From: a bacterium | GTDB lineage: Bacteria > Desulfobacterota > Desulfocorpusculales > Desulfocorpusculum | Assembly: GCA_037481695.1 (NCBI GenBank) | Contig: JBBFLE010000002.1 | Span: 142,661 to 206,660 of the forward strand | Direction: 5' to 3' | Length of the DNA stretch: 64,000 nt | In this document: positions 27,269 to 40,466 of the stretch, one piece after another | Position numbering within the stretch: position 1 is the stretch's first letter | How the letters are laid out: the number at the start of each line of letters is the position of its first letter | Notes under the pieces: model-generated | Database searches by the model: none | Told to the model about the DNA's origin: nothing | Seen by the model: the letters and a program-made list of their open reading frames with translations, nothing else | Translations under genes and position numbers: made by a program

Positions 27269-28300
27269 TCATGTGATCCTCAAGGCCTGCTTCAAGACCC
27301 TCATGAACTTTTTCTGCCCCACGGTTGCAGTGCCCATCTCCCCCACCACAACTCCTGCGGCCAAATTGGCCATAATAGCCGCATCCTTAGGCGGAGCCCC
27401 AGACACAAGGCCCAGGGTGAAAACACTGATGACCGTGTCGCCCGCGCCCGTAACGTCATAAACCTTTTTGGCTACTGTAGGAATGTGCACTTGGGGGGCT
27501 CCATCCAGGAAAAGGCTCATGCCCTCCTCCCCCCTGGTTATGAGAAGCATCCTGCATTGCAGCTCCTTGATCAAACTCTGACCTATCTGCTCGAGACACA
27601 CCGAAGCCCCTTCATTGACTCCAGCAGCCCTCACAGCCTCTTTATAATTGGGGGTCACTGCCGTGACCTGCCTGTAAATGGTGAAGGGACTCACCTTGGG
27701 ATCAACACAGGCTATTATGCCTCTTAGGCTCATGGCCATCCGAACCTCCTCCATGAGCGGCTCATCCACAACCCCTTTGCCATAATCAGAAACTATTATG
27801 GCATCCACGCAAGAGGATTGCCTTCTTATGAAATCACGGAGCTTTTGACCCAGTTCTTGGGAAAGGGAGCCGGACTTTTCGTTGTCTATGCGCACGACCT
27901 GCTGGCTGTGGGCTATGATCCTGGTCTTGAGCGTGGAGGGACGTGCTGGATCCAGAAAGATCCCCTCTGTGTTCACACCTTTCTTTCGCACATCGCGCAG
28001 CAGCCACCTGCCAGGCTGGTCTGCCCCCACTATGCCCACCAGGGACACCTTGGCCCCCATGGCCCTGAGGTTATTTGCCACGTTGGCAGCTCCACCCCAT
28101 CGCAGGCTTTTCTCTGTGACCTTGACCACTGGCACTGGCGCCTCGGGAGAGATCCTCTCCACTTTGCCCCAGATGAATTCATCCACTATGAGATCCCCAA
28201 CCACCAATACCCTAGCATCCTTGAAACGCTGAGGCCATTGAAGCAGTCTGCGAGTCAATGGCCTGGAAGCTGTCTTGGCCTTCTCTTGAATCCTGCTCAT
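27269..28300 (-). CDS. rfaE1: D-glycero-beta-D-manno-heptose-7-phosphate kinase (RfaE1 domain only)
   Basis: This is a PfkB-family kinase that phosphorylates D-glycero-D-manno-heptose 7-phosphate at C1 on the way to ADP-heptose. The 343 residues match the N-terminal half of bifunctional HldE. They include LVVGDLIVDEFIWG, RISPEAPVPVV, RWGGAANVANNLRAMGA and the PfkB signature DVTGAGDTVISVF with the catalytic Asp. The nucleotidyltransferase half is absent and must be encoded elsewhere. The ATG at 28300 overlaps the previous stop (ATGA). An ATG at 28330 is also in frame. Confidence 0.92.
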   Translation of the reverse strand: MSRIQEKAKTASRPLTRRLLQWPQRFKDARVLVVGDLIVDEFIWGKVERISPEAPVPVVKVTEKSLRWGGAANVANNLRAMGAKVSLVGIVGADQPGRWLLRDVRKKGVNTEGIFLDPARPSTLKTRIIAHSQQVVRIDNEKSGSLSQELGQKLRDFIRRQSSCVDAIIVSDYGKGVVDEPLMEEVRMAMSLRGIIACVDPKVSPFTIYRQVTAVTPNYKEAVRAAGVNEGASVCLEQIGQSLIKELQCRMLLITRGEEGMSLFLDGAPQVHIPTVAKKVYDVTGAGDTVISVFTLGLVSGAPPKDAAIMANLAAGVVVGEMGTATVGQKKFMRVLKQALRIT

Positions 28301-29316
28301 GAAATTCTTGCCCCCTGCTCCAAGCCCCATCCCTGTGGACAGCCTTTGAGATGCCAGGAGAGGATCTTTCCTTGCACCTTGCTACGATCCTGCCAACTGG
28401 ACCTGGAGGGCCAGGGAACTGTCCCCAGGATGCTGGAAATGATCCAGTTGCACAGAACCCTAAGGACCAATCCTCCTTTTAGCACGGCAGTTCTCAGCTC
28501 TCCTCTGTGAAGCTGGAAGAACCTGTAACGAGACCTGTAGAATTCTATTCTGGCAGCTGCCAAATGCCTGGCTGCTGATCTGCCCTGGAGGTGAACTGCC
28601 CTTGCCTGAGGCACATGGAAAACCGACCATCTTGCTTTTCTCATACGTTCACACCAATCGGTCTCTTCCATAAAAAAGAAGTAACCCTCGTCCAGAAGCC
28701 CCACCTCCACCCAAGCCTCTCTTCTGACCATTAGGAAGGCCCCCTTGACTGACTCCACCTCCATGGGGCTTGCCGGGGGACATCTCTTGCTGGGGAACCG
28801 GGAGGGCCACAATACCTCCAAAACAGCCTTGGGTAGCAGCTCTGTGGTAAGAGTGGGGGCCCTGCCAAAGCAATTCTGATGCCTTCCATTCTCATGTAGC
28901 AAAAGCCCGGCCGCGATGCCCACCCTTGGATGGGATTCCATTACTTCCAGGAGCCTCTCCACAGCACCTGACTCGGGAAAACAATCTGTGTTGAGCAGTA
29001 ATGCGAACTGGCCTGAGCACCTCTCAAGGGCCATGTTCACGGCCCTGGAAAAGCCCATGTTGCTTTCATTGCAAAGAAGCAGAACCTCAGGAAAAGCTTC
29101 CCGCACCGCATCAGCGCTCTTGTCCCAGGAGCCGTTGTCCACCACCCAAACCTCGGTTCTCATGGGCAGTTCCAGTGAATAAAGGTGCCCAAGACATCTC
29201 AGAGTGAGTTCCCTGGTATTGAAACTCACCAAGACCACAGAAAGGGTGATTTCTTCTGGTTTGGCCTTTGCCATACCAACAGGCTGGGGCCTCAAAGTCT
29301 CTTTGAAAGACTGCAT
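28297..29316 (-). CDS. Glycosyltransferase family 2, rhamnosyltransferase (WbbL)-like
   Basis: This is a GT2 enzyme of the WbbL/rhamnosyltransferase type, expected to add a sugar to LPS core or O-chain on the cytoplasmic face. In its 339 residues the GT-A fold shows LSVVLVSFNTRELTLRCL, VVDNGSWD, the donor/metal motif LLNTDCF, and the acceptor-side EVGLLDEGYFFFMEETDWCERM. The last 60 residues contain a hydrophobic stretch (VLRVLCNWIISSILG) that may dock to the membrane. The acceptor sugar cannot be predicted. Its TGA overlaps the rfaE1 ATG. Confidence 0.85.
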   Translation of the reverse strand: MQSFKETLRPQPVGMAKAKPEEITLSVVLVSFNTRELTLRCLGHLYSLELPMRTEVWVVDNGSWDKSADAVREAFPEVLLLCNESNMGFSRAVNMALERCSGQFALLLNTDCFPESGAVERLLEVMESHPRVGIAAGLLLHENGRHQNCFGRAPTLTTELLPKAVLEVLWPSRFPSKRCPPASPMEVESVKGAFLMVRREAWVEVGLLDEGYFFFMEETDWCERMRKARWSVFHVPQARAVHLQGRSAARHLAAARIEFYRSRYRFFQLHRGELRTAVLKGGLVLRVLCNWIISSILGTVPWPSRSSWQDRSKVQGKILSWHLKGCPQGWGLEQGARIS

Positions 29317-30847: not shown

Positions 30848-32017
30848 TCAAGAGTTTGTCCTTTTGCTTTGACAGAGTTTTCCTCTTACAGCAGAAGCCG
30901 AGATCTTCCTATAAAATTCAGCTACCTTGACTGCCTGTTCTGTGATGGAAAAATCCCTCAGGGCCCTGTTTCTGGCTGCATCACCCATGGATTTTCTCAG
31001 CTCAGGGGCCAGGATCATCTTTTCCATGGCAGCTGCCAAAGATTGCGGCTCCTCCTCCACCAAGATCCCCGTTACTCCATCCTCCACAAGCTCCTCCAAC
31101 ATGCCCCTTCTTGTGGAAACTATGGGTTTACCCATGGCCATGGCTTCTCTGATGGCACGGCAGGTACCGTCTGAGCCTGGGACCAGAAATACCTTCAGAT
31201 CAATGGCAGCCAGGTAATCCACATAGTCCTCCCCCCGGTAACCGGGGAATAGCACCCTGTTTTCCAAACCCATCCTCCTGGCCGGCTCCATTGCCACCTC
31301 CCTAATGTGGGTCCCCCTGCCCAGTACCAGGAGTTTCACGGGTAGGTTCTTCTGGGTCAAGATAACCATGGCATCCAACAGAAGGTGGAATCGTCTGTGC
31401 CTTTGCATCCTGGCCACGATTCCTACCAAAACCTCCTGAGGGCCCACTCCCAAAGCAGCCCGGATGTCTTTGCTCACAAGGCCTGGATCAAAACGCTTCA
31501 AATCCACAGCCCCTTCCACCAGAAGACAGTTTTTGGGATCCAATGCGAAGTTGCGTACATTCTCCTCCATGGCCTTCTTGGAGAATTCCACCAGGCCCTG
31601 GGTGCCTTTGCCCAAGAGCCATTTGTTCCAAAGTGATGGATGCAAAGGACGAGCCTTGTGATTTGTGCGCACTATGGGGATCCCACAACGCCTAGAAGCC
31701 CAGGCACCCAGTACATGGTCATGGCTGAGATGGCTGTGGATTATATCGAAGCTTTCCCTCTTCAGGAATGAGGGCAGAAAGCAGAAGTCCTGCAATGTTT
31801 CCAAGGGGTCCAGGTACCGGTTCAGGTGAAACCGTGTGGTAACGTTGAGTTTTCTCTCCTTAGCCTTTCCTTCCACGGAAACCGGATAATCCAAGGGAGG
31901 CTTTCTGCATGCCAGGAGGATTTCTATCCCCATGGTCTTGAGCTCGCTACAGAGGTTTACCACAGGCTCGGCCGGCCCGGTCCATTTCCAGTCGCTGAAG
32001 AGATGGAGCACTTTCAT
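30848..32017 (-). CDS. Glycosyltransferase family 4
   Basis: This is a GT-B fold retaining glycosyltransferase, expected to act in LPS core assembly at the inner membrane. Over 389 residues the N-terminal half begins MKVLHLFSDWKWTGPAEP and has FDIIHSHLSHDHVLG. The donor-binding half has VGIVARMQRHRRFHLLLDA, VLGRGTH, and the E-x7-E region GTCRAIREAMAMGKPIV. It starts at ATG 32017, overlapping the kinase stop as ATGA. A start 10 codons upstream is open but lies inside the kinase gene. Donor and acceptor are unknown. Confidence 0.88.
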   Translation of the reverse strand: MKVLHLFSDWKWTGPAEPVVNLCSELKTMGIEILLACRKPPLDYPVSVEGKAKERKLNVTTRFHLNRYLDPLETLQDFCFLPSFLKRESFDIIHSHLSHDHVLGAWASRRCGIPIVRTNHKARPLHPSLWNKWLLGKGTQGLVEFSKKAMEENVRNFALDPKNCLLVEGAVDLKRFDPGLVSKDIRAALGVGPQEVLVGIVARMQRHRRFHLLLDAMVILTQKNLPVKLLVLGRGTHIREVAMEPARRMGLENRVLFPGYRGEDYVDYLAAIDLKVFLVPGSDGTCRAIREAMAMGKPIVSTRRGMLEELVEDGVTGILVEEEPQSLAAAMEKMILAPELRKSMGDAARNRALRDFSITEQAVKVAEFYRKISASAVRGKLCQSKRTNS

Positions 32018-33603
32018 GTTCTTGCTTTCCTTTGGAGGCTCAGGCACTCCACCTCTTTTCTCAGATCACGAAACCTCTGTCTGGAGTATTGATTGCCCAT
32101 GTACATTCTTAGGAACTTCATTCTGGAGAAAGCTCTCACGGATTCAGGCAAGGAGGCGTCCAGCTGGGCCAGGTTGCGCACGATCTTGGCCCTTGGGACC
32201 CTCTTGCCGAAACTTACATCTTCCAGATCCAGGAAAAGGATCCGGTTGCCTTCTTGGGTTGTCCTGACCATGAGATTTGTGGCCTTGAGGTCCCTGTGGA
32301 ATATGCCTTGGGCGTGCATTCTGGCCAGGGTGTGGGCCAGATCCTTCATGAGCTGCTTTTTTTTGCAGCCTTGGGGACCCACAGACTTTACCAGATGATC
32401 CATTCTCACTCCATCCTGAATCAGCTCCATTATGACTCCTGAGGAAAAAAAACCTCCTTTGTTCACTTCCCACATGGCCATGGGCTCCGGCACATAAAAA
32501 TCTCTGGCCATCATCCCCCATGCACCCACCCAGAACCGTCTGGCCCTGGAAGGCATCAAGGCCCCAAATACTCTCCACCAAGGGCTTCTTAGGGTTTGCT
32601 CTTTTATGCAAAAAGCCAAGGGCTTGCCATCGAGCTCCAATCCACATCGAAAAACCCTCGTAGGACCCGAAATCTTTAACACCTTCTGGTCTTGAGGACT
32701 CAGAGTCTCTTGTGCCTCATCCAAAGCCTTGAGTACGGCTTCCAAGGGAAAATCTCTTTTTCTGATAACAACTCCTCCAGGAATCATCTCCCTGGCAAAC
32801 CCACTATTGTTTCTCAAACACCTCCTGGTCTTGCTCCTTTGACGCTTGCGAAGCATTCTTTGCTTAATCATTCCTATGGACTCTTCCCAGGAGCAGACAT
32901 CTCGGGCAGAGTGGTTTTCCAAATAGGCCTCCAACAAGGAGCTCTCCTCACCGGGTGTCAATTCCTTTCTCAAAGACATGAGAATCTGAGCCACGTTCCA
33001 CTTTCTTTTTTTCTCCCCCAAAGGTTTGCCCGTGCTTATCCTGTGCAGGTCCAAGAGCCAAAACAAGGGGCTTCCCTCACTGGTCTTTCCCACCAAGAGG
33101 TTGTCTCCATGGAGATCTTTGTGCAGGATTCCCATGTCGTGGATCCAGGCCAAATATGCCCCCAGGGCTTTCAAGATACTCGTTCTTTGTGTTCTCTGGA
33201 GCTTCAATTCTTGGGTAAGGGTGGAAGCCCCCAGGATTGCCTGGCTCACAAAGATGCCCTCCAGGGGAATCCCATTTCGTAGGATCTCCCCCATCAGCAA
33301 AGGTTTTGGAGCCAATACCCCCATCCTGGAAAGCACAAAGGAGTTGCTCCATTCCTTCCTCCATTGAAACCCTCTTACTCTGTTCCAAAGGGCCCTGGGC
33401 AGGCCCAGTCTGAAATATCTCTTGAGCACAATCGGCTCCAATCCAGGCAGTTCCACCCAGAGCACCTCTCTGATCCTGGAACGATTCATGACTCTAGAGT
33501 GATAACCCCCCTGCAACAGAGATTCCACATGCTCCAGCAGCAATGGTGAGGCCATGCTGGAGGCGCACCACCGCCACGGTGAATCCTTGCCCTCCAGAAG
33601 CAT
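32014..33603 (-). CDS. Tandem (two-domain) lipopolysaccharide kinase, WaaP/InaA-like
   Basis: The 529-residue product joins two kinase domains of the LPS core kinase superfamily (RfaP/InaA/KdkA). Domain 1 has the ATP lysine in PIVLKRYF, the catalytic HKDLHGDNLLV and the metal-binding WLLDLHRI. Domain 2 has AFCIKEQ, HRDLKATNLMV and LFLDLEDVSF. Both keep the His-x-Asp and Asn catalytic residues. Domain 2 shows no obvious alpha-C glutamate. The domains meet near residues 255-275. The ATG at 33603 is chosen because AAGGAGG stands five bases before it. The frame runs back to 33750 (TTG) without a good site. The domains likely phosphorylate core heptose or Kdo. Confidence 0.82.
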   Translation of the reverse strand: MLLEGKDSPWRWCASSMASPLLLEHVESLLQGGYHSRVMNRSRIREVLWVELPGLEPIVLKRYFRLGLPRALWNRVRGFQWRKEWSNSFVLSRMGVLAPKPLLMGEILRNGIPLEGIFVSQAILGASTLTQELKLQRTQRTSILKALGAYLAWIHDMGILHKDLHGDNLLVGKTSEGSPLFWLLDLHRISTGKPLGEKKRKWNVAQILMSLRKELTPGEESSLLEAYLENHSARDVCSWEESIGMIKQRMLRKRQRSKTRRCLRNNSGFAREMIPGGVVIRKRDFPLEAVLKALDEAQETLSPQDQKVLKISGPTRVFRCGLELDGKPLAFCIKEQTLRSPWWRVFGALMPSRARRFWVGAWGMMARDFYVPEPMAMWEVNKGGFFSSGVIMELIQDGVRMDHLVKSVGPQGCKKKQLMKDLAHTLARMHAQGIFHRDLKATNLMVRTTQEGNRILFLDLEDVSFGKRVPRAKIVRNLAQLDASLPESVRAFSRMKFLRMYMGNQYSRQRFRDLRKEVECLSLQRKART

Positions 33604-33718
33604 GTTGGCCTCCTTGTGCCAGTTCTTCCCCATTTCTGCTTCCACTGCCACCGGCTCATCACCTGTGCAGAAAATCCCAGGCAGGTCTGAGCTGGTTTTC
33701 TCTGGAAGATGCACAAAT

Positions 33719-34897
33719 CTATTTGGGAGACGGTGTTTTCTCCGGCCCAAACCCTGCAGAGGCCACCTCCAGGTATAGTCTTTCCATCTCGGCCAGATGC
33801 CATTGCTTGGAGATCTGTTCAGAGGCCTTTCTGGCCTCTTGCCCCATTTGGTCTCTCAATCTTTCATCTTCCAGCGCCAATATCCTATCCCTCAGCTGGC
33901 TGACATTTCTGGGGTCTGATACCAGGTAACCTGAGATCCCATCTTTGATCAGCTCAGAAGCCCCGTTCCAACTGGTCGTAACAACCGGAAGACCGCTGGC
34001 CATGGCCTCCAGGCAGACATTGGCACAGGGATCATAGAAGGTAGGATGCACCAAGATGTCCACACCACTCATCAAGAACTCTGGCCGTTTCACAGGACCC
34101 AGAAAAACAACAGGTATTCCAGCCTTCAGAGCCTTTTGCTCATAGGGTGCCTTTTTCCCCCGGCCAGCCACCAGAAGAAGGAAACATGATGGCATGGGCT
34201 CCTTCAAAGCCTCCAAGAGACAATTCAAGCCCTTGAGCCTGAAATTGTGGGCCAGAAACAAAATGATCACACGATCATCTGAGAGGCCTAATCTGCTTCT
34301 CACCTCGGCCCTCCACTTAGGTCTGTTCTCTGGATGAAAAGTGTTTATGTCCACACCATTGGGAATCACACGAATCCTTTGGGGATCAATGCTGGGATAG
34401 GACCTCATGATGTCAGCTGCCACCATCCAGGAATTGGCCACCACTGCTCGGGAGCCTCCATTTTCGTATATTTTGGACTCTATCCAGAGATTCACGGCCA
34501 GTTTCAGTGAAATTCTCAGACGCATCCAGGCCAGCCACCTTCTCCACCCTGGTTCGTGGGAGATTATTTCCCTTGCAAGCCAGGCCCTTTCGGATCCCCC
34601 CCCGGGCCGATGAACATCCACCCCCCATGTGGCTCCAAAACCCTGAATCACATCAAAGTCTTCAGCGCTGAGTCGTCTCCGGGCAGAAAGGCAAAGAGAC
34701 AAGGCCTTTGCCCCTCGTGGGTATGGTAACATGGGTAAGCTATGGGTCTTGATTCCCTCTAATTGCCCTTGGAAACTGTGAGCCAATACATGCACCTGGT
34801 GACCCCGTTGCAGGAGTCCCTGGGCCAGAGAGCTGGCATAGCCTTCCCCTCCACCCCGAGTTGAATCCAGATGATCAATTACCAGGGCCACCTTCAT
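33719..34897 (-). CDS. Glycosyltransferase family 4, WaaG-like
   Basis: This GT4 enzyme resembles LPS glucosyltransferase I (WaaG/RfaG), which adds the first hexose to inner-core heptose. The 392-residue protein starts MKVALVIDHLDSTRGGGEGYA and has VDVHRPGGGSERAWL, RIRVIPNGVDINTFHP, and the donor site FLAHNFRLKGLNCLLEAL followed by VHPTFYDPCANVCLEAMASG. waaG next to a core kinase gene is a known arrangement in Pseudomonas. It overlaps the upstream GT2 gene by 23 bases. The 115 bases to the kinase start hold no other gene. Confidence 0.87.
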   Translation of the reverse strand: MKVALVIDHLDSTRGGGEGYASSLAQGLLQRGHQVHVLAHSFQGQLEGIKTHSLPMLPYPRGAKALSLCLSARRRLSAEDFDVIQGFGATWGVDVHRPGGGSERAWLAREIISHEPGWRRWLAWMRLRISLKLAVNLWIESKIYENGGSRAVVANSWMVAADIMRSYPSIDPQRIRVIPNGVDINTFHPENRPKWRAEVRSRLGLSDDRVIILFLAHNFRLKGLNCLLEALKEPMPSCFLLLVAGRGKKAPYEQKALKAGIPVVFLGPVKRPEFLMSGVDILVHPTFYDPCANVCLEAMASGLPVVTTSWNGASELIKDGISGYLVSDPRNVSQLRDRILALEDERLRDQMGQEARKASEQISKQWHLAEMERLYLEVASAGFGPEKTPSPK

Positions 34898-35666
34898 TTT
34901 CGGCCCCTGTCTGCCTTTGCTCTAGTTCCCAAAGCTTGGCATACTTGGCGAAGACATAGAACATGGTGGAAACAACTATGATCAGGCCCGGCATTCCATC
35001 TCGGAAGCCCTGCTTTATGAGATACTCCTTCAGGAACCGGCCCAAAGGGTGTGTGAGCATCTTGTAGAGGCTGAAGCTTTGCCCACTTTTCATGAGCTCC
35101 ATGGCAGCCATCTGAGAATACTTGTCTATGGTGCGAATCTGGTGACCGAAGGATTCGTAGTTATAATGGAGGATGTCGTTCTTGAGGCGTCCCAACCCAC
35201 CCTTTATCTCCACGGCTGCGTGAGGCTCTTGGCCTCCCCACCAATTCCCCTCGCTCCTAAATAGCCTCACCGAAAGATCAGGATACCATGCCCCATGTCT
35301 TATCCATCTGCCCAAATAAAAAGAACAGCGGGGTACCAGAAAGCCCTGTACCGTCTCGGCTGCATGCAACACTGCATGCTCCATCTCCTTGCGGAGTTCT
35401 GGAGGAACAACCTCGTCTGCATCCACCCACAAGATCCATTCTCCTGTGGTTTGCTGCTTGGCAAAATTCCGCTGTTGTATGAATCCAGGCCACTGCCTCT
35501 GGAAGATCTTGTTCGTATACCTGGAGGCCACCTCCAGGCTCTGATCCGTACTGAAGGAATCCACCACCACTATTTCGTCCACCCAGGCAATACTTCTAAG
35601 ACACATCTCCAGAGTGGATCCGTTGTTGAAGGTCAGGACTGTGGCCGATATGGCAGGACGTCTCAT
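34875..35666 (-). CDS. Glycosyltransferase family 2, WaaE/LgtF-like
   Basis: This small GT2 enzyme is of the WaaE/LgtF type, which in other bacteria adds beta-glucose to inner-core heptose. In its 263 residues motifs are ISATVLTFNNGSTLEMCLRS, IVVVDSFSTDQSLEVA, WILWVDADEVVPPEL (the DxD motif) and RHGAWYPDLSVRLFR. A hydrophobic segment near the end (GLIIVVSTMFYVFA) may anchor it. The ATG at 35666 overlaps the waaF stop as ATGA. A GTG two codons earlier is less likely. Confidence 0.88.
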   Translation of the reverse strand: MRRPAISATVLTFNNGSTLEMCLRSIAWVDEIVVVDSFSTDQSLEVASRYTNKIFQRQWPGFIQQRNFAKQQTTGEWILWVDADEVVPPELRKEMEHAVLHAAETVQGFLVPRCSFYLGRWIRHGAWYPDLSVRLFRSEGNWWGGQEPHAAVEIKGGLGRLKNDILHYNYESFGHQIRTIDKYSQMAAMELMKSGQSFSLYKMLTHPLGRFLKEYLIKQGFRDGMPGLIIVVSTMFYVFAKYAKLWELEQRQTGAENEGGPGN

Positions 35667-36694
35667 GGGCACCCATCCCGGAATTCCAGAAGCTCCTGTG
35701 CAGCCTCAAGCACATCCTCCACCCGAATGTCCAGCAGACACCTGTTATGCCCTTCGGGACAACGCCTTCGGAAACAGGGTGAGCATGGCAGCCCCACACT
35801 GGCTATGCGGTGAGGACCCATGGGGGCTGTGGCTGATGGATCTGTAGATCCAAAAACCGCTACCACTGGCACCCCAAGCACTGCGGCCAGATGCATGGGT
35901 CCGGAATCGTTGCAAAGTATAAGATCACACCGGGATATCAATGCAGCCAGTTTGGGCAAGTCCGTAAGCCCTGCCAGGTTAAGAGCATCTCGGCCTAGTT
36001 CATGGGCCATGCCAGCTGCAACATCCCTCTCTAAAGAGTTCCCCAAGAGTATGACTTTGGCCCTGTGGGAGCGCATCAAGCCTCGGGCAACGGCCACAAA
36101 CCTCTCGGGCGGCCATATTTTTGCAGGCCCGTAGGCCGCTCCAGGACAAATACCTATCAAGCATCTGCCAGACATACTCTTGCCAATCCTCCCCAAGGCC
36201 CACTGTTGGGCCTCCGGAGGAATCCTGAGATGCACAGCCGCCTTTTCCCCTTTCCATCCCATGGCCTTCAAGAGCTCCAGGTAAATTTCCGAATGATGTG
36301 CAGCTTTGGGACGCCTGGAAGCCGGTACGGATGGATCCAAAAGAAGATCACGCCATTGCCCTGCATAACCCCACCTCTTTGGTACACCGGCCCAAAAGGC
36401 GATCCATGCGGACCTAAAAGAGTTGGGAAACAGAATCGCCCTTTGAGCCCTGAGGCTCTTGAGGAGCCTTATGCGTCTCCTTGTACCTTTAGGCCAGCCC
36501 CAGACATGATCCGCTACCTGCGCCATACGGACCAACTCCACGAGGCTGGAAGGGCAGACAACGTGTATGTCTTCTTCGGAAAGCCATTTTCTGAGTGTAC
36601 ACAGAGCTGGCAGCGACATGATGGTGTCGCCCAGCCAGTTCACCCCTATCACTACCGTCCGAGAAGCTCCTGGGGCCGAGTTTGTCCCGGCCAT
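35663..36694 (-). CDS. waaF: ADP-heptose:LPS heptosyltransferase II-like (GT9)
   Basis: This GT9 enzyme transfers L,D-heptose from ADP-heptose to the inner core. Over 343 residues it shows VVIGVNWLGDTIMSLPAL with the catalytic Asp near residue 23, HSEIYLELLKAMG, CPGAAYGPAKIWPPERF, and the donor-binding LCNDSGPMHLAAVLGVPVVAVFG. The C-terminal CSPCFRRRCPEGHNRCL carries a cysteine cluster common in WaaF/WaaQ proteins. Assignment to heptosyltransferase II rather than III rests on similarity to the WaaF group. It follows the Trm112-like gene by nine bases. Confidence 0.9.
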   Translation of the reverse strand: MAGTNSAPGASRTVVIGVNWLGDTIMSLPALCTLRKWLSEEDIHVVCPSSLVELVRMAQVADHVWGWPKGTRRRIRLLKSLRAQRAILFPNSFRSAWIAFWAGVPKRWGYAGQWRDLLLDPSVPASRRPKAAHHSEIYLELLKAMGWKGEKAAVHLRIPPEAQQWALGRIGKSMSGRCLIGICPGAAYGPAKIWPPERFVAVARGLMRSHRAKVILLGNSLERDVAAGMAHELGRDALNLAGLTDLPKLAALISRCDLILCNDSGPMHLAAVLGVPVVAVFGSTDPSATAPMGPHRIASVGLPCSPCFRRRCPEGHNRCLLDIRVEDVLEAAQELLEFRDGCP

Positions 36695-37294: not shown

Positions 37295-38272
37295 TCAAGA
37301 GATGTTTATGTGTGCAGGGACTCCAGAGTCTCTTGCCAACCATTGGCACATCCAGGCCCATTGCTTGGCAAGCCCATCCCTCAACCTCACCTTGGGCTGG
37401 TAACCCAGCTCCTTTCTCGCCAGGTTCAGGTCCGCCATGGTGTGACGCACGTCTCCCAGCTCAGGCTTTTTCCAGGACACCACCGGTGTGCTCCCGGTCA
37501 CCTCTTGGAGGATGGCCAGCACTTCTTTGAGGGTGGCCCTGGCTCCACCTCCTATATTGTAGACCTTGCCTGGCTGACCCACCTCTGCCGCCTTTAGGTT
37601 GGCATCCACTATGTCTGAGATATATGTGAAATCACGGCTTTGTGTTCCGTCCCCATAGATAGTAAGGGCTTTGTTGCTCCATATGGCCTTGAGGAACCGG
37701 TGAAAAGCCATGTCGGGCCTTTGCCTGGGGCCGTAAACCGTAAAATATCTCAGACTCACCGAAGGGACTCTATAGTTTTTCCAGTACAGAACACAGAGGT
37801 GTTCCGCAGCCAGCTTGGTCACGCCATAAGGGGAAAGGGGTCTAGGCAGGGCATTTTCAGAGCTGGGATACCTGGATTGATCTCCGTACACAGAGGAAGA
37901 AGATGCGTAAACCAGCCTGCGAAGCCTGACTTCTCGGCAGGCTTCCAGAAGTCTTTGGGTTGAAAAGACATTGTGGTGAAGATAATGGTTAAACTCTTTA
38001 CCCCAGCTGGATCGCACGCCGGCCTGAGCAGCCAAGTGATAAACCACCTCCACCCCATCGAGAACCCCCTGGAGGTCCATCTCCGCCAAGTCCCCCCGGA
38101 TCAACTGGAAGCCCTTGTATTTCCTCAATTCCTCTATGTTGGCTTGTTTCAGCTCCAGTTGATAGGCTCGGGTAAAGCAATCCACCCCCACCACCTCATG
38201 GCCCTGCTCAAGAAGTGCCTGGGCCATGTGAGAACCTATGAAACCGGCCACTCCTGTAACCAGGCACCTCAC
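37295..38272 (-). CDS. NAD-dependent sugar-nucleotide epimerase (extended SDR)
   Basis: This is an extended short-chain dehydrogenase/reductase acting on a UDP- or dTDP-sugar, most like UDP-glucose/UDP-glucuronate 4-epimerases. The 325-residue protein has the NAD loop VTGVAGFIGSHM, the catalytic Ser region VYASSSSVYG, the YxxxK pair in SPYGVTKLAAEHL, and RYFTVYGPRQRPDMA. The GTG start overlaps the waaC stop as GTGA. It may supply the sugar for a core glycosyltransferase or the aminotransferase. The exact substrate cannot be read from the sequence. Confidence 0.87.
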   Translation of the reverse strand: MRCLVTGVAGFIGSHMAQALLEQGHEVVGVDCFTRAYQLELKQANIEELRKYKGFQLIRGDLAEMDLQGVLDGVEVVYHLAAQAGVRSSWGKEFNHYLHHNVFSTQRLLEACREVRLRRLVYASSSSVYGDQSRYPSSENALPRPLSPYGVTKLAAEHLCVLYWKNYRVPSVSLRYFTVYGPRQRPDMAFHRFLKAIWSNKALTIYGDGTQSRDFTYISDIVDANLKAAEVGQPGKVYNIGGGARATLKEVLAILQEVTGSTPVVSWKKPELGDVRHTMADLNLARKELGYQPKVRLRDGLAKQWAWMCQWLARDSGVPAHINIS

Positions 38273-39372
38273 GAGGAGGCCTCCCCTGCCACTGCTTCCA
38301 CGGGCTTCAATGGCCAGCCGTTGGCCCTGTCCTTTTTCATCAAGAAGTTCACCTTCTCAAGGACCTCCTCTGGGTCTATGGCCTCCATACAGGCCTTTGT
38401 GACACATCCTCTCTTGAAACAGGGACTACAGGAGATCTCTTTGCGCACAACAATGTTGTTGGCCCCATATGGACCCGTGCGCCATGGGGCAGTGGGGCCA
38501 AAGAGGGCCACAACTGGCGTTCCCAGGGCTGCGGCCATGTGCATGGGTCCCGAATCAGTTGATACAACCACCTTTGCCATTTCCAGTATGGCCATAAGCC
38601 CGGGAATATCAGTGCTGCCCCCCAGGTTCAATGCTGGGTTCTTCATGTTTGCCCTTATACTCTCCAGATAAGGGATCTCCTCCTGGACCCCCACCAGAGC
38701 CACCTGGAAACCCAAACGTTCAATCAACCCATCCCCCACTCTGGCAAAGGCTGTTTGGCTCCATCTCTTGCTCTGCCACCGCGCCGAGGGTACCAACACA
38801 GCCCAGGGGATCTGTGGATCCCAACCCCTGGAGGCCAAAAACTCTATCATGCGACCCTTGGCCTCTTTTGGTGCCCGCAGTCCGAACTCTGGTTCCTTGA
38901 CATGGCAGCCTCCCAGGCTGGCAGCCAGCTGGAGGTATCTTTCCACTGCATGCATTTGGCCGTTTACATCCCCAAGGGTCTCATGCAGAAAAATCTTGCT
39001 TATCCTTTCCTTGGTCCATCTCAAACCAACCTTTCTGCGGGCTTTGGCCAACCCCATCCATATGCCGCTTTTGAGAAGCCCCTGGAGGTCTATGGCTATA
39101 TCGTAAGGCCTTCTCAACTGTGCCACCAAAGCTCTGATCTGGGAAATGGTAACAGGCCAGTTCTCGGGTTTCTTGAACTGCCTGGGCCAGGAGGATCTTC
39201 TAGAAACCAGTATTGTATCGACTCCTGGATGACACCTAAGCACCGGCTCTGCAGCCTCCTCCACCAGCCAGTGGATTCGTGCTGCGGGAAATTGCTTTTT
39301 CAGCACAGGGATCACCGGCAAGGCCTGAATCACATCCCCCAGGGAACTCATCTTTATGACCAGAATATCCAC
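38269..39372 (-). CDS. waaC: ADP-heptose:LPS heptosyltransferase I-like (GT9)
   Basis: This GT9 enzyme is expected to add the first heptose to Kdo2-lipid A. The 367-residue protein begins with LVIKMSSLGDVIQALPV, the WaaC-type start with the catalytic Asp at about residue 13. It has ISKIFLHETLGDVNGQMHAVERYL, VPSARWQSKRW and STDSGPMHMAAALGTPVVALFGP. The start is GTG with AGGTG seven bases upstream. It lies between lpxK and the epimerase. A cysteine-containing segment (CSPCFKRGCVTKAC) mirrors that of waaF. Confidence 0.9.
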   Translation of the reverse strand: MDILVIKMSSLGDVIQALPVIPVLKKQFPAARIHWLVEEAAEPVLRCHPGVDTILVSRRSSWPRQFKKPENWPVTISQIRALVAQLRRPYDIAIDLQGLLKSGIWMGLAKARRKVGLRWTKERISKIFLHETLGDVNGQMHAVERYLQLAASLGGCHVKEPEFGLRAPKEAKGRMIEFLASRGWDPQIPWAVLVPSARWQSKRWSQTAFARVGDGLIERLGFQVALVGVQEEIPYLESIRANMKNPALNLGGSTDIPGLMAILEMAKVVVSTDSGPMHMAAALGTPVVALFGPTAPWRTGPYGANNIVVRKEISCSPCFKRGCVTKACMEAIDPEEVLEKVNFLMKKDRANGWPLKPVEAVAGEASS

Positions 39373-39398: not shown

Positions 39399-40466
39399 TC
39401 AAACCATTAACCTCTCCAATAAGGCCTCCAGGCTGCCCATGCCTTGCACCTCCAGATCCACCTCTAAAGCCATGAGCAGAGGCACATCCAGGCCTGTCTC
39501 CCTGATCTTCCAGATATCTTTCTCTGTTGTGACTATGAGGTCCACCTCTCCAACAAGGCTCTTTATACATGAAGCATCGTGGGGAGTATACCAGTGATGG
39601 TCTGGGAAAAAAAGGCAGGGGCCCAACTCGGCCCCCAAGGCTCTGACCATGTTGCCAAGCCCATGGGGATCTCCTATGGCACAGACCAAGGCTGCCTTTT
39701 TGCCCCTCAGGAACTCCACAGGGTAGGTCTGCTGGCCCCCCATGACCCTCAGATTCTTGGCCCTCAAAAATGCTCCAATGGATGGGATCGGCTTTGTTGC
39801 CTCTGAGTATTGGATCTGGGATCCCCCATCTGGCTCACCTGTAAATACAAGCAGTTGAGCCCTCTTAAGAGAACTCACAGGTTCCCTAAGGGGGCCTGCT
39901 GGTATTAGTTTGTTGTTGCCCCAGGGTCTCGGAAGCCTTGCCACCACAAGATCCAAATCACGAGCCAAGGCCCTGTGCTGAAATCCGTCATCCAGGATGA
40001 AAACATCGCAGTGATTTGTCTCCCAAGCCGCCATGCCTGCCCTAAACCTGTCAGCCCCGACCCAAATTGACACTCCCTTTAGTCTTTGGGCCATCATGTA
40101 AGGCTCGTCTCCTGCGGCTCTGACAGATACCTTGCTTCCGTTGCCTTCGCTTACCTGCAGGATGGAAGAGGTTCTAGACCTTCCATAACCTCTGGAAAGA
40201 ACAGTGACCTTGGCGCCCTTTTGTTTGAGTAAGTCTGAAAGCAGGATCACCATGGGGGTCTTGCCGGTCCCGCCTGCGGTCAGGTTCCCCACCGAGACAA
40301 CAGGAGCCGGAAGCCTCCTTACCCCGATTCCCTTGTCATACCATCTGTTCCTGAGATGGACCGCCCCTCTGTAGAACCAGGAGATACACCCAAGGGGCAC
40401 TCCCCATGCGTCCCGGGGCTCCTGAGCGAACCTCACCCTGGATTCCACAGCAGCCCTCAAGCCCAA
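39399..40466 (-). CDS. lpxK: Tetraacyldisaccharide 4'-kinase
   Basis: LpxK phosphorylates the 4' position of the lipid A disaccharide to give lipid IVA at the inner membrane. The 355-residue protein has a membrane-associated N-terminus, the P-loop SVGNLTAGGTGKTP (about residues 58-71), LSRGYGRS, AGDEPYMMAQ and the Walker-B-like ILDDGFQHRALARDLDLV. The TTG start at 40466 overlaps kdtA by 10 bases and has GGAGAG six bases upstream. Its place next to kdtA and waaC is normal for the pathway. Confidence 0.95.
   Translation of the reverse strand: MGLRAAVESRVRFAQEPRDAWGVPLGCISWFYRGAVHLRNRWYDKGIGVRRLPAPVVSVGNLTAGGTGKTPMVILLSDLLKQKGAKVTVLSRGYGRSRTSSILQVSEGNGSKVSVRAAGDEPYMMAQRLKGVSIWVGADRFRAGMAAWETNHCDVFILDDGFQHRALARDLDLVVARLPRPWGNNKLIPAGPLREPVSSLKRAQLLVFTGEPDGGSQIQYSEATKPIPSIGAFLRAKNLRVMGGQQTYPVEFLRGKKAALVCAIGDPHGLGNMVRALGAELGPCLFFPDHHWYTPHDASCIKSLVGEVDLIVTTEKDIWKIRETGLDVPLLMALEVDLEVQGMGSLEALLERLMV

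Follow-up and report, generated by a model that had tools for sequence, protein, structure and literature searches.

The tandem kinase gene and its neighbourhood

The window analysed here, a stretch of 64,000 nucleotides from a bacterium assigned to Desulfocorpusculum (GCA_037481695.1, contig JBBFLE010000002.1, positions 142,661 to 206,660 of the forward strand), carries on its reverse strand a gene for a tandem kinase of the 3-deoxy-D-manno-octulosonic acid (Kdo)/WaaP family (32014..33603, 529 codons plus stop), as recognized by its open frame, two matches to PF06293 and an AlphaFold model. The gene represents a two-domain branch of the lipopolysaccharide (LPS) kinases that is widespread but has been overlooked. 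The original prediction had described two LPS kinase domains in one polypeptide, and a single 529-codon frame with PF06293 in each half was indeed found. The reverse-strand frame is free of stops from 32014 to 33750. A Shine-Dalgarno sequence, AAGGAGG (33609..33615, reverse strand), is located 5 nt ahead of the ATG at 33603, whereas no comparable site was identified in the sequence before the upstream ATG at 33633, strongly indicating that the protein has 529 residues and that its start had been placed correctly. The stop codon overlaps the ATG of the downstream gene as ATGA.

Half 1, an H-type kinase domain (residues 1-262; 32818..33603, reverse strand), matched PF06293 with 48.7 bits (E=8.3e-13, residues 1-266), and half 2, a K-type kinase domain (residues 265-529; 32017..32811, reverse strand), with 52.5 bits (E=5.7e-14, residues 267-529); the whole protein reached 97.8 bits at a family cut-off of 21.3. 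The two halves share 28% identity across 171 residues (E=1e-16). They are joined by a basic linker motif, SKTRRCLRNNSGF (32797..32838, reverse strand), which was apparent in the tandem alignments and is strongly conserved across the tandem family in the form SRTKRCLxxSSxF. Half 2 also exceeded the cut-off of PF00069 (33.8 bits; cut-off 31.7) yet lacks the alphaC glutamate; half 1 scored 19.7 bits.

An AlphaFold model of the whole protein, produced from the window protein aligned with 27 tandem proteins, had a mean predicted local distance difference test score (pLDDT) of 91.6 and a predicted template modelling score (pTM) of 0.87. In the structure search with this model the listed matches fell on half 1. 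The Foldseek top match was Pseudomonas aeruginosa WaaP (6dfl), which in VIA gave a Z of 18.4 over 230 aligned residues at a root mean square deviation (rmsd) of 4.4; PRPK was on a par with it (in its best row, Z 19.0 over 219 residues at an rmsd of 3.8). For half 2 modelled alone (pLDDT 92.8, pTM 0.89), WaaP 6dfl again came first, both in Foldseek (E=2.5e-12) and in VIA (Z 20.0 over 226 residues at an rmsd of 3.9), with PRPK again on a par (Z 19.2). A WaaP-like kinase fold is therefore predicted for each half. Failure of one half to be predicted as a kinase had been named as an outcome that would speak against the fusion; both halves gave confident predicted kinase folds with WaaP among the nearest solved relatives.

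The conservation of the active sites was determined in 105 non-redundant tandem proteins with gaps set aside; this set omits duplicates and 55 other matching frames (single domain, or a half under 35/30 bits) and contains no Pseudomonas-like sequences. In half 1, the beta-3 lysine (Lys61, 33421..33423) and the alphaC glutamate (Glu84, 33352..33354) are each present in 101/102 proteins (3 gaps each). The catalytic loop HKDLHGDN (33100..33123) retains its aspartate (Asp163 in the window protein) in 104/105, the histidine at +2 in 104/105 and the asparagine in 103/105, and the metal motif DLH within LLDLH (33043..33051), as in D188-L-H190 of WaaP, its aspartate in 104/105. In half 2, the beta-3 lysine (Lys334, 32602..32604) occurs in 91/94 (11 gaps), and the catalytic loop HRDLKATN (32275..32298) has its aspartate (Asp438 in the window protein) in 102/104, the lysine at +2 in 100/104 and the asparagine in 99/104. 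Its metal motif DLE within FLDLE (32221..32229), of the form D-x-D/E, keeps the aspartate in 103/104 and the acid at +2 in 99/104. All these features lie on the reverse strand.

Where half 1 reads Glu-Trp, half 2 has Phe357-Trp358 in the family alignment (32530..32535, reverse strand). The absence of an alphaC glutamate from the second domain, remarked upon in the original prediction, is real and family-wide: the position is occupied by Ala (48), Ser (38), Gly (6), Thr (4), Phe (3), Val (3) and one each of Asn, Gln and His, and by an acid in 0/105, while the following residue is Trp in 103 and Phe in two of the 105. No conserved substitute acid was found on this helix from -8 to +9 in the 105 tandem proteins. 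The active site of P. aeruginosa WaaP comprises K51, E78, H161-R-D163 and D188-L-H190, and a K51A variant did not support growth (PMC6147952). As this residue set is matched by half 1 and not fully by half 2, half 1 is the canonical and half 2 a derived domain. Each half thus has its own ATP lysine, HxD-x4-N loop and metal aspartate, as had been proposed, conserved across the tandem proteins. Since half 2 keeps its lysine, catalytic aspartate, asparagine and metal aspartate, the loss of the glutamate is a constant feature of what appears to be a catalytic subfamily.

The kinase gene sits among LPS genes of the same strand. Just upstream in the same operon lies a WaaG-like glycosyltransferase of family 4 (GT4; 33719..34897, PF00534/PF13439), followed upstream by a WaaE-like family 2 glycosyltransferase (GT2; 34875..35672, PF00535) and heptosyltransferase II (35663..36694; TIGR02195 215 bits, cut-off 134.6). 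Further upstream, a heptosyltransferase of family 9 (GT9), HepI/HepII-like in the profile search (38269..39372), and LpxK (39399..40466; TIGR00682 219.7 bits, cut-off 91.95) are encoded, and the gene just downstream, whose ATG overlaps the kinase stop, encodes another GT4 enzyme (30848..32017, PF00534). All of these are on the reverse strand. The open reading frames beyond LpxK and the heptosyltransferase we take to be KdtA, MsbA, LpxB, LpxI, LpxA, LpxD and a BamA-like protein, and the downstream frame 27269-28330 presumably encodes an HldE-like kinase. The gene is therefore a genuine tandem LPS kinase gene within an LPS operon beside WaaG- and WaaE-like genes, as originally described. In the 4.1 Mb genome, only its two halves matched PF06293 over the cut-off; a third match, at 20.1 bits, remained under the 21.3 required.

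Distribution and ancestry of the tandem family

A contig scan of genomes with the single window protein as query identified no relative. Among 39 genomes of relatives, including that of the window, 17 contained a match, and two-domain frames from 14 loci in 13 genomes were aligned and used as a profile. A two-domain frame was called where one row spanned model positions <=100 to >=455, counted among the matches listed. Such frames occurred in at least 70 of 296 genomes of the window's phylum, in two of which (G143, G207) stop codons interrupt the match, in 52/99 Planctomycetota, searched at a stricter E-value of 1e-20 (G661 with stops inside), and in at least 12 of 299 Pseudomonadota, all 12 Pseudomonas-like in look. 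A genome of the same family as that of the window (G002) has a 570-residue open reading frame matching the profile, and named carriers include Scalindua, Brocadiaceae and metagenome-assembled genomes (MAGs) of Gemmatales. The search for the same domain pair in other genomes, suggested along with the original prediction, was thus positive in several phyla, and the view that tandem enzymes are unusual among LPS kinases did not hold, as the family is widespread and includes PA5006 of Pseudomonas. A heptosyltransferase is encoded nearby at 11/33 named tandem loci versus about 1% expected per 13 kb, an expectation derived from the three such genes in the window's genome; the count leaves out L064, L074 and L075, whose frames duplicate L006, L010 and L039. 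Tandem proteins of anammox-type MAGs (L070, L071, L073, L085) have some 40-60 additional residues inserted into half 2, between the N-terminal part of this half and its catalytic loop.

Within the 105 tandem proteins, a half had its nearest match in the corresponding half of a different protein in 209/210 cases, and the distances among first halves (H1) and second halves (H2) were correlated (r=0.793; maximum of 500 permutations 0.082). A careful halves-only tree, which included four PA5006-like proteins, set 26 H1 apart from 26 H2 with a support of 100/99. When single-domain kinases were included in a wider quick tree, the same split had a support of 88 at the midpoint root; there, WaaP, WapP and WapQ fell on the H1 side, and WaaY of Escherichia coli formed a very long branch of unsure placement. 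The long-branched half 1 of L012 was placed on the H2 side in the quick tree and with H1 in the careful one. A recent internal duplication is ruled out, as the halves are old and order-specific (209/210; tree 100/99). The clean separation points to one ancient arrangement, and a single origin of the H1-H2 order, followed by spread or descent, would be the simplest reading of these sequences.

In a few proteins one half has degenerated. L021 has a dead half 1, with Glu for the catalytic Asp, His for Asn and Gly for the metal Asp, in a genome that also encodes an intact tandem protein (L010). L125 and L134, members of one family (f69; genomes G145 and G206), have a dead half 2, and in both genomes a separate, intact half-2 gene follows 1-2 kb further downstream in the same orientation; G145 additionally carries a second tandem gene (L124). 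H1-like and H2-like genes are adjacent in Halonatronum saccharophilum (L110, L221) and in G710 (L222); in G056 (L157) the two are likewise separate genes, with H2 ahead of H1. The dead-half and split-gene cases, few as they are, would fit a need for both activities.

Other domain fusions were also observed. A GT2 glycosyltransferase is fused to a PF06293 kinase without alphaC glutamate in L023:475-2148 and L129:4218-6179 (Pfam for both), the latter locus also containing a tandem kinase gene, and similar frames occur in L127, L128 and L136. In L099:5653-8307 a kinase frame is fused to a GFO/IDH/MocA oxidoreductase domain.

PA5006 and other known kinases

In P. aeruginosa the gene order waaP-wapP-wapQ-PA5006 is given in PMC8707732 and PMC8005017. 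Correspondingly, three single kinases adjoin the tandem gene in L214, L215 and L216, and likewise in L217, where the frame extents are less certain; in L218 the tandem gene is accompanied by a single WaaP-like gene. The L214 WaaP and that of P. aeruginosa (6dfl) aligned over their full lengths (483.8 bits), and the tandem product of L214 matched PF06293 in two stretches. This gene order and the two PF06293 stretches place PA5006 in the tandem family: as judged from its orthologues in L214, L216, L217 and L218, PA5006 is a tandem kinase of the same kind as the window protein.

These orthologues resemble the window protein in several respects. H1 precedes H2 in one frame, the halves nest inside the tandem family and group by kind, half 1 has HxDLHxxN with the alphaC glutamate, and half 2 has HxD(L/F)KxxN without it; the PA5006-type motif set (HxDLHxxN plus alphaC Glu; HxDLKxxN, no alphaC acid, Trp) was found in the window protein. 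Both types are located in LPS core clusters, with GT9 genes at L214 and L216-L218. However, the orthologues lie beside waaP, wapP and wapQ, whereas in the window's genome no PF06293 protein other than the tandem passed the cut-off. A table in PMC9866376, after Turner et al., lists PA5006 as essential in 3/3 conditions. In two-hybrid experiments, according to PMC8707732, PA5006 dimerizes and binds PA2576, an EamA-like transporter; the clone that made this contact comprises residues 300-493, a region that by comparison with L214 (half 2 match approximately 261-450) corresponds to half 2 and the C-terminus. Within the accessible text of open-licence literature, no description was found of a tandem LPS kinase, of two domains in PA5006 or of a PA5006 substrate.

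The Pseudomonas-type WapQ (L214:8412-9164 and L216:11195-11938, both reverse strand) reads HGCFYPKH where WaaP has HRDCYICH. With Cys in place of the catalytic Asp, WapQ may be a pseudokinase or use a different mechanism.

The heptose-I kinase WaaP/RfaP (6dfl) shares the predicted fold of each half and, with half 1, the Lys, alphaC Glu, HRD and DLH; it differs in being a single domain and in having the alphaC glutamate that half 2 lacks. The best NCBIfam match of the window protein was the model of the Kdo kinase KdkA (NF002475), which is single-domain with 241 positions. The kinases of Halanaerobiales (L110/L221 and L222) share the order of an H1-like and an H2-like gene, but these are separate genes and fall outside the tandem halves in the tree, and they are therefore not shown to be parents of the fusion. 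No single stop-free two-domain frame was detected in 13 Halanaerobiales genomes. H. saccharophilum L110/L221 has three adjoining LPS-type kinase genes, two of which have HxDP, not HxDL, in the catalytic loop.

Possible functions of the two halves

Phosphorylation of the inner part of LPS is the probable role of the tandem protein. We favor the window gene product as a bifunctional LPS inner-core kinase, a reading that we consider reasonably likely and in which we infer the activity of the halves, the sugar substrate and the positions. Two catalytic domains of the WaaP fold would be made as one polypeptide from the operon for lipid A and core synthesis, and would act on the cytoplasmic side of the inner membrane. 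With ATP as donor, the halves would phosphorylate separate hydroxyl groups of the growing inner core, most likely those of the two heptoses, and a single docking event would yield two phosphates. Half 1 would act as the canonical domain, with its Lys-Glu pair, HxDLHxxN and DLH, and half 2 as a derived but active one, with no alphaC glutamate, the adjacent Trp, HxDLKxxN and D-x-D/E. This reading is supported by the predicted WaaP-like folds and the catalytic residues kept in both halves, by the clean split and co-varying distances of H1 and H2, by the two heptosyltransferases and LpxK in the operon, by the heptosyltransferases at 11/33 named loci, by the lack of another PF06293 protein over the cut-off in the window's genome, by the separate half-2 genes of G145 and G206 and the adjacent genes of Halonatronum, and by the place of PA5006 in the waa operon and its tabulated essentiality. 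That half 2 is a distinct active kinase variant without the alphaC glutamate, fused to half 1, and that two inner-core sugars are phosphorylated per encounter, is put forward tentatively.

Several observations weigh against the bifunctional kinase. In kinases, the active state is usually weakened where the alphaC glutamate is lost. The window protein remained under the cut-offs of the RfaP model NF011703 (46.2 bits; cut-off 170) and of the KdkA model (91.2 bits; cut-off 142). At 22/33 named tandem loci, mostly of Planctomycetota, no GT9 gene was present within the flank, and the three single kinases beside PA5006 blur its own task in Pseudomonas. Finally, the degenerate halves of L021, L125 and L134 indicate that one active half may suffice in some proteins.

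The latter proteins would suit an arrangement in which one half is catalytic and the other regulatory or a scaffold, half 2 being an ATP-binding allosteric domain or half 1 a stabilizer that replaces the acyl carrier protein cofactor (acyl-ACP) of WaaP. The uniform lack of the alphaC glutamate in half 2 (105/105) and the contact of the PA5006 fragment 300-493 with PA2576 (PMC8707732) point in the same direction. We regard this arrangement as unlikely, though: half 2 keeps its lysine, catalytic aspartate, asparagine and metal aspartate at 95-99% of letters, near the level of half 1, and where half 2 is dead it is accompanied by a neighbouring intact half-2 gene. Thus, of the two possibilities raised in the original prediction, two phosphates added by one protein remains the best reading, while a regulatory second domain is weakened by the retained catalytic set (Lys 91/94, Asp 102/104).

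It appears rather improbable that the kinase merely happens to be encoded in the LPS operon and phosphorylates another substrate, such as Kdo, a protein or a different envelope glycolipid. Half 2 is indeed protein-kinase-like in sequence (HRDLKxxN; PknB and TP53RK matches), the best NCBIfam score was that of a Kdo kinase, and many planctomycete copies have no LPS neighbour. However, the Foldseek top match of both the whole model and half 2 was the heptose kinase WaaP, and the gene is located in an LPS core cluster in the window and in Pseudomonas. As to an artefact, in which errors of sequencing or reading would have merged two genes, a few draft genomes (G266, G246) do have versions split over two frames, but single-frame homologues in at least 70 of the 296 phylum genomes and in other phyla, together with the conserved linker motif, leave it practically no probability. 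A frameshift or missed stop and start had also been named as evidence that would speak against the fusion; the single-frame homologues already refute it, and with the open frame and the Shine-Dalgarno sequence a two-gene reading of 32014-33603 is ruled out.

Core phosphates help to hold the Gram-negative outer membrane together. The analysis ties the window gene to a broad family, best known from the essential PA5006 of P. aeruginosa, and the two-domain branch is new as a described variant of LPS kinases. The fixed loss of the alphaC glutamate with the remaining active site kept should be of interest to kinase enzymologists, and proteins with one dead half as well as genomes with the domains as separate genes provide natural controls. 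If half 2 is indeed such an active variant and the fused enzyme phosphorylates two inner-core sugars, PA5006, tabulated as essential, would gain a defined job, and the same machine would be present in Planctomycetota, anammox bacteria among them, a group in which LPS has received little study.

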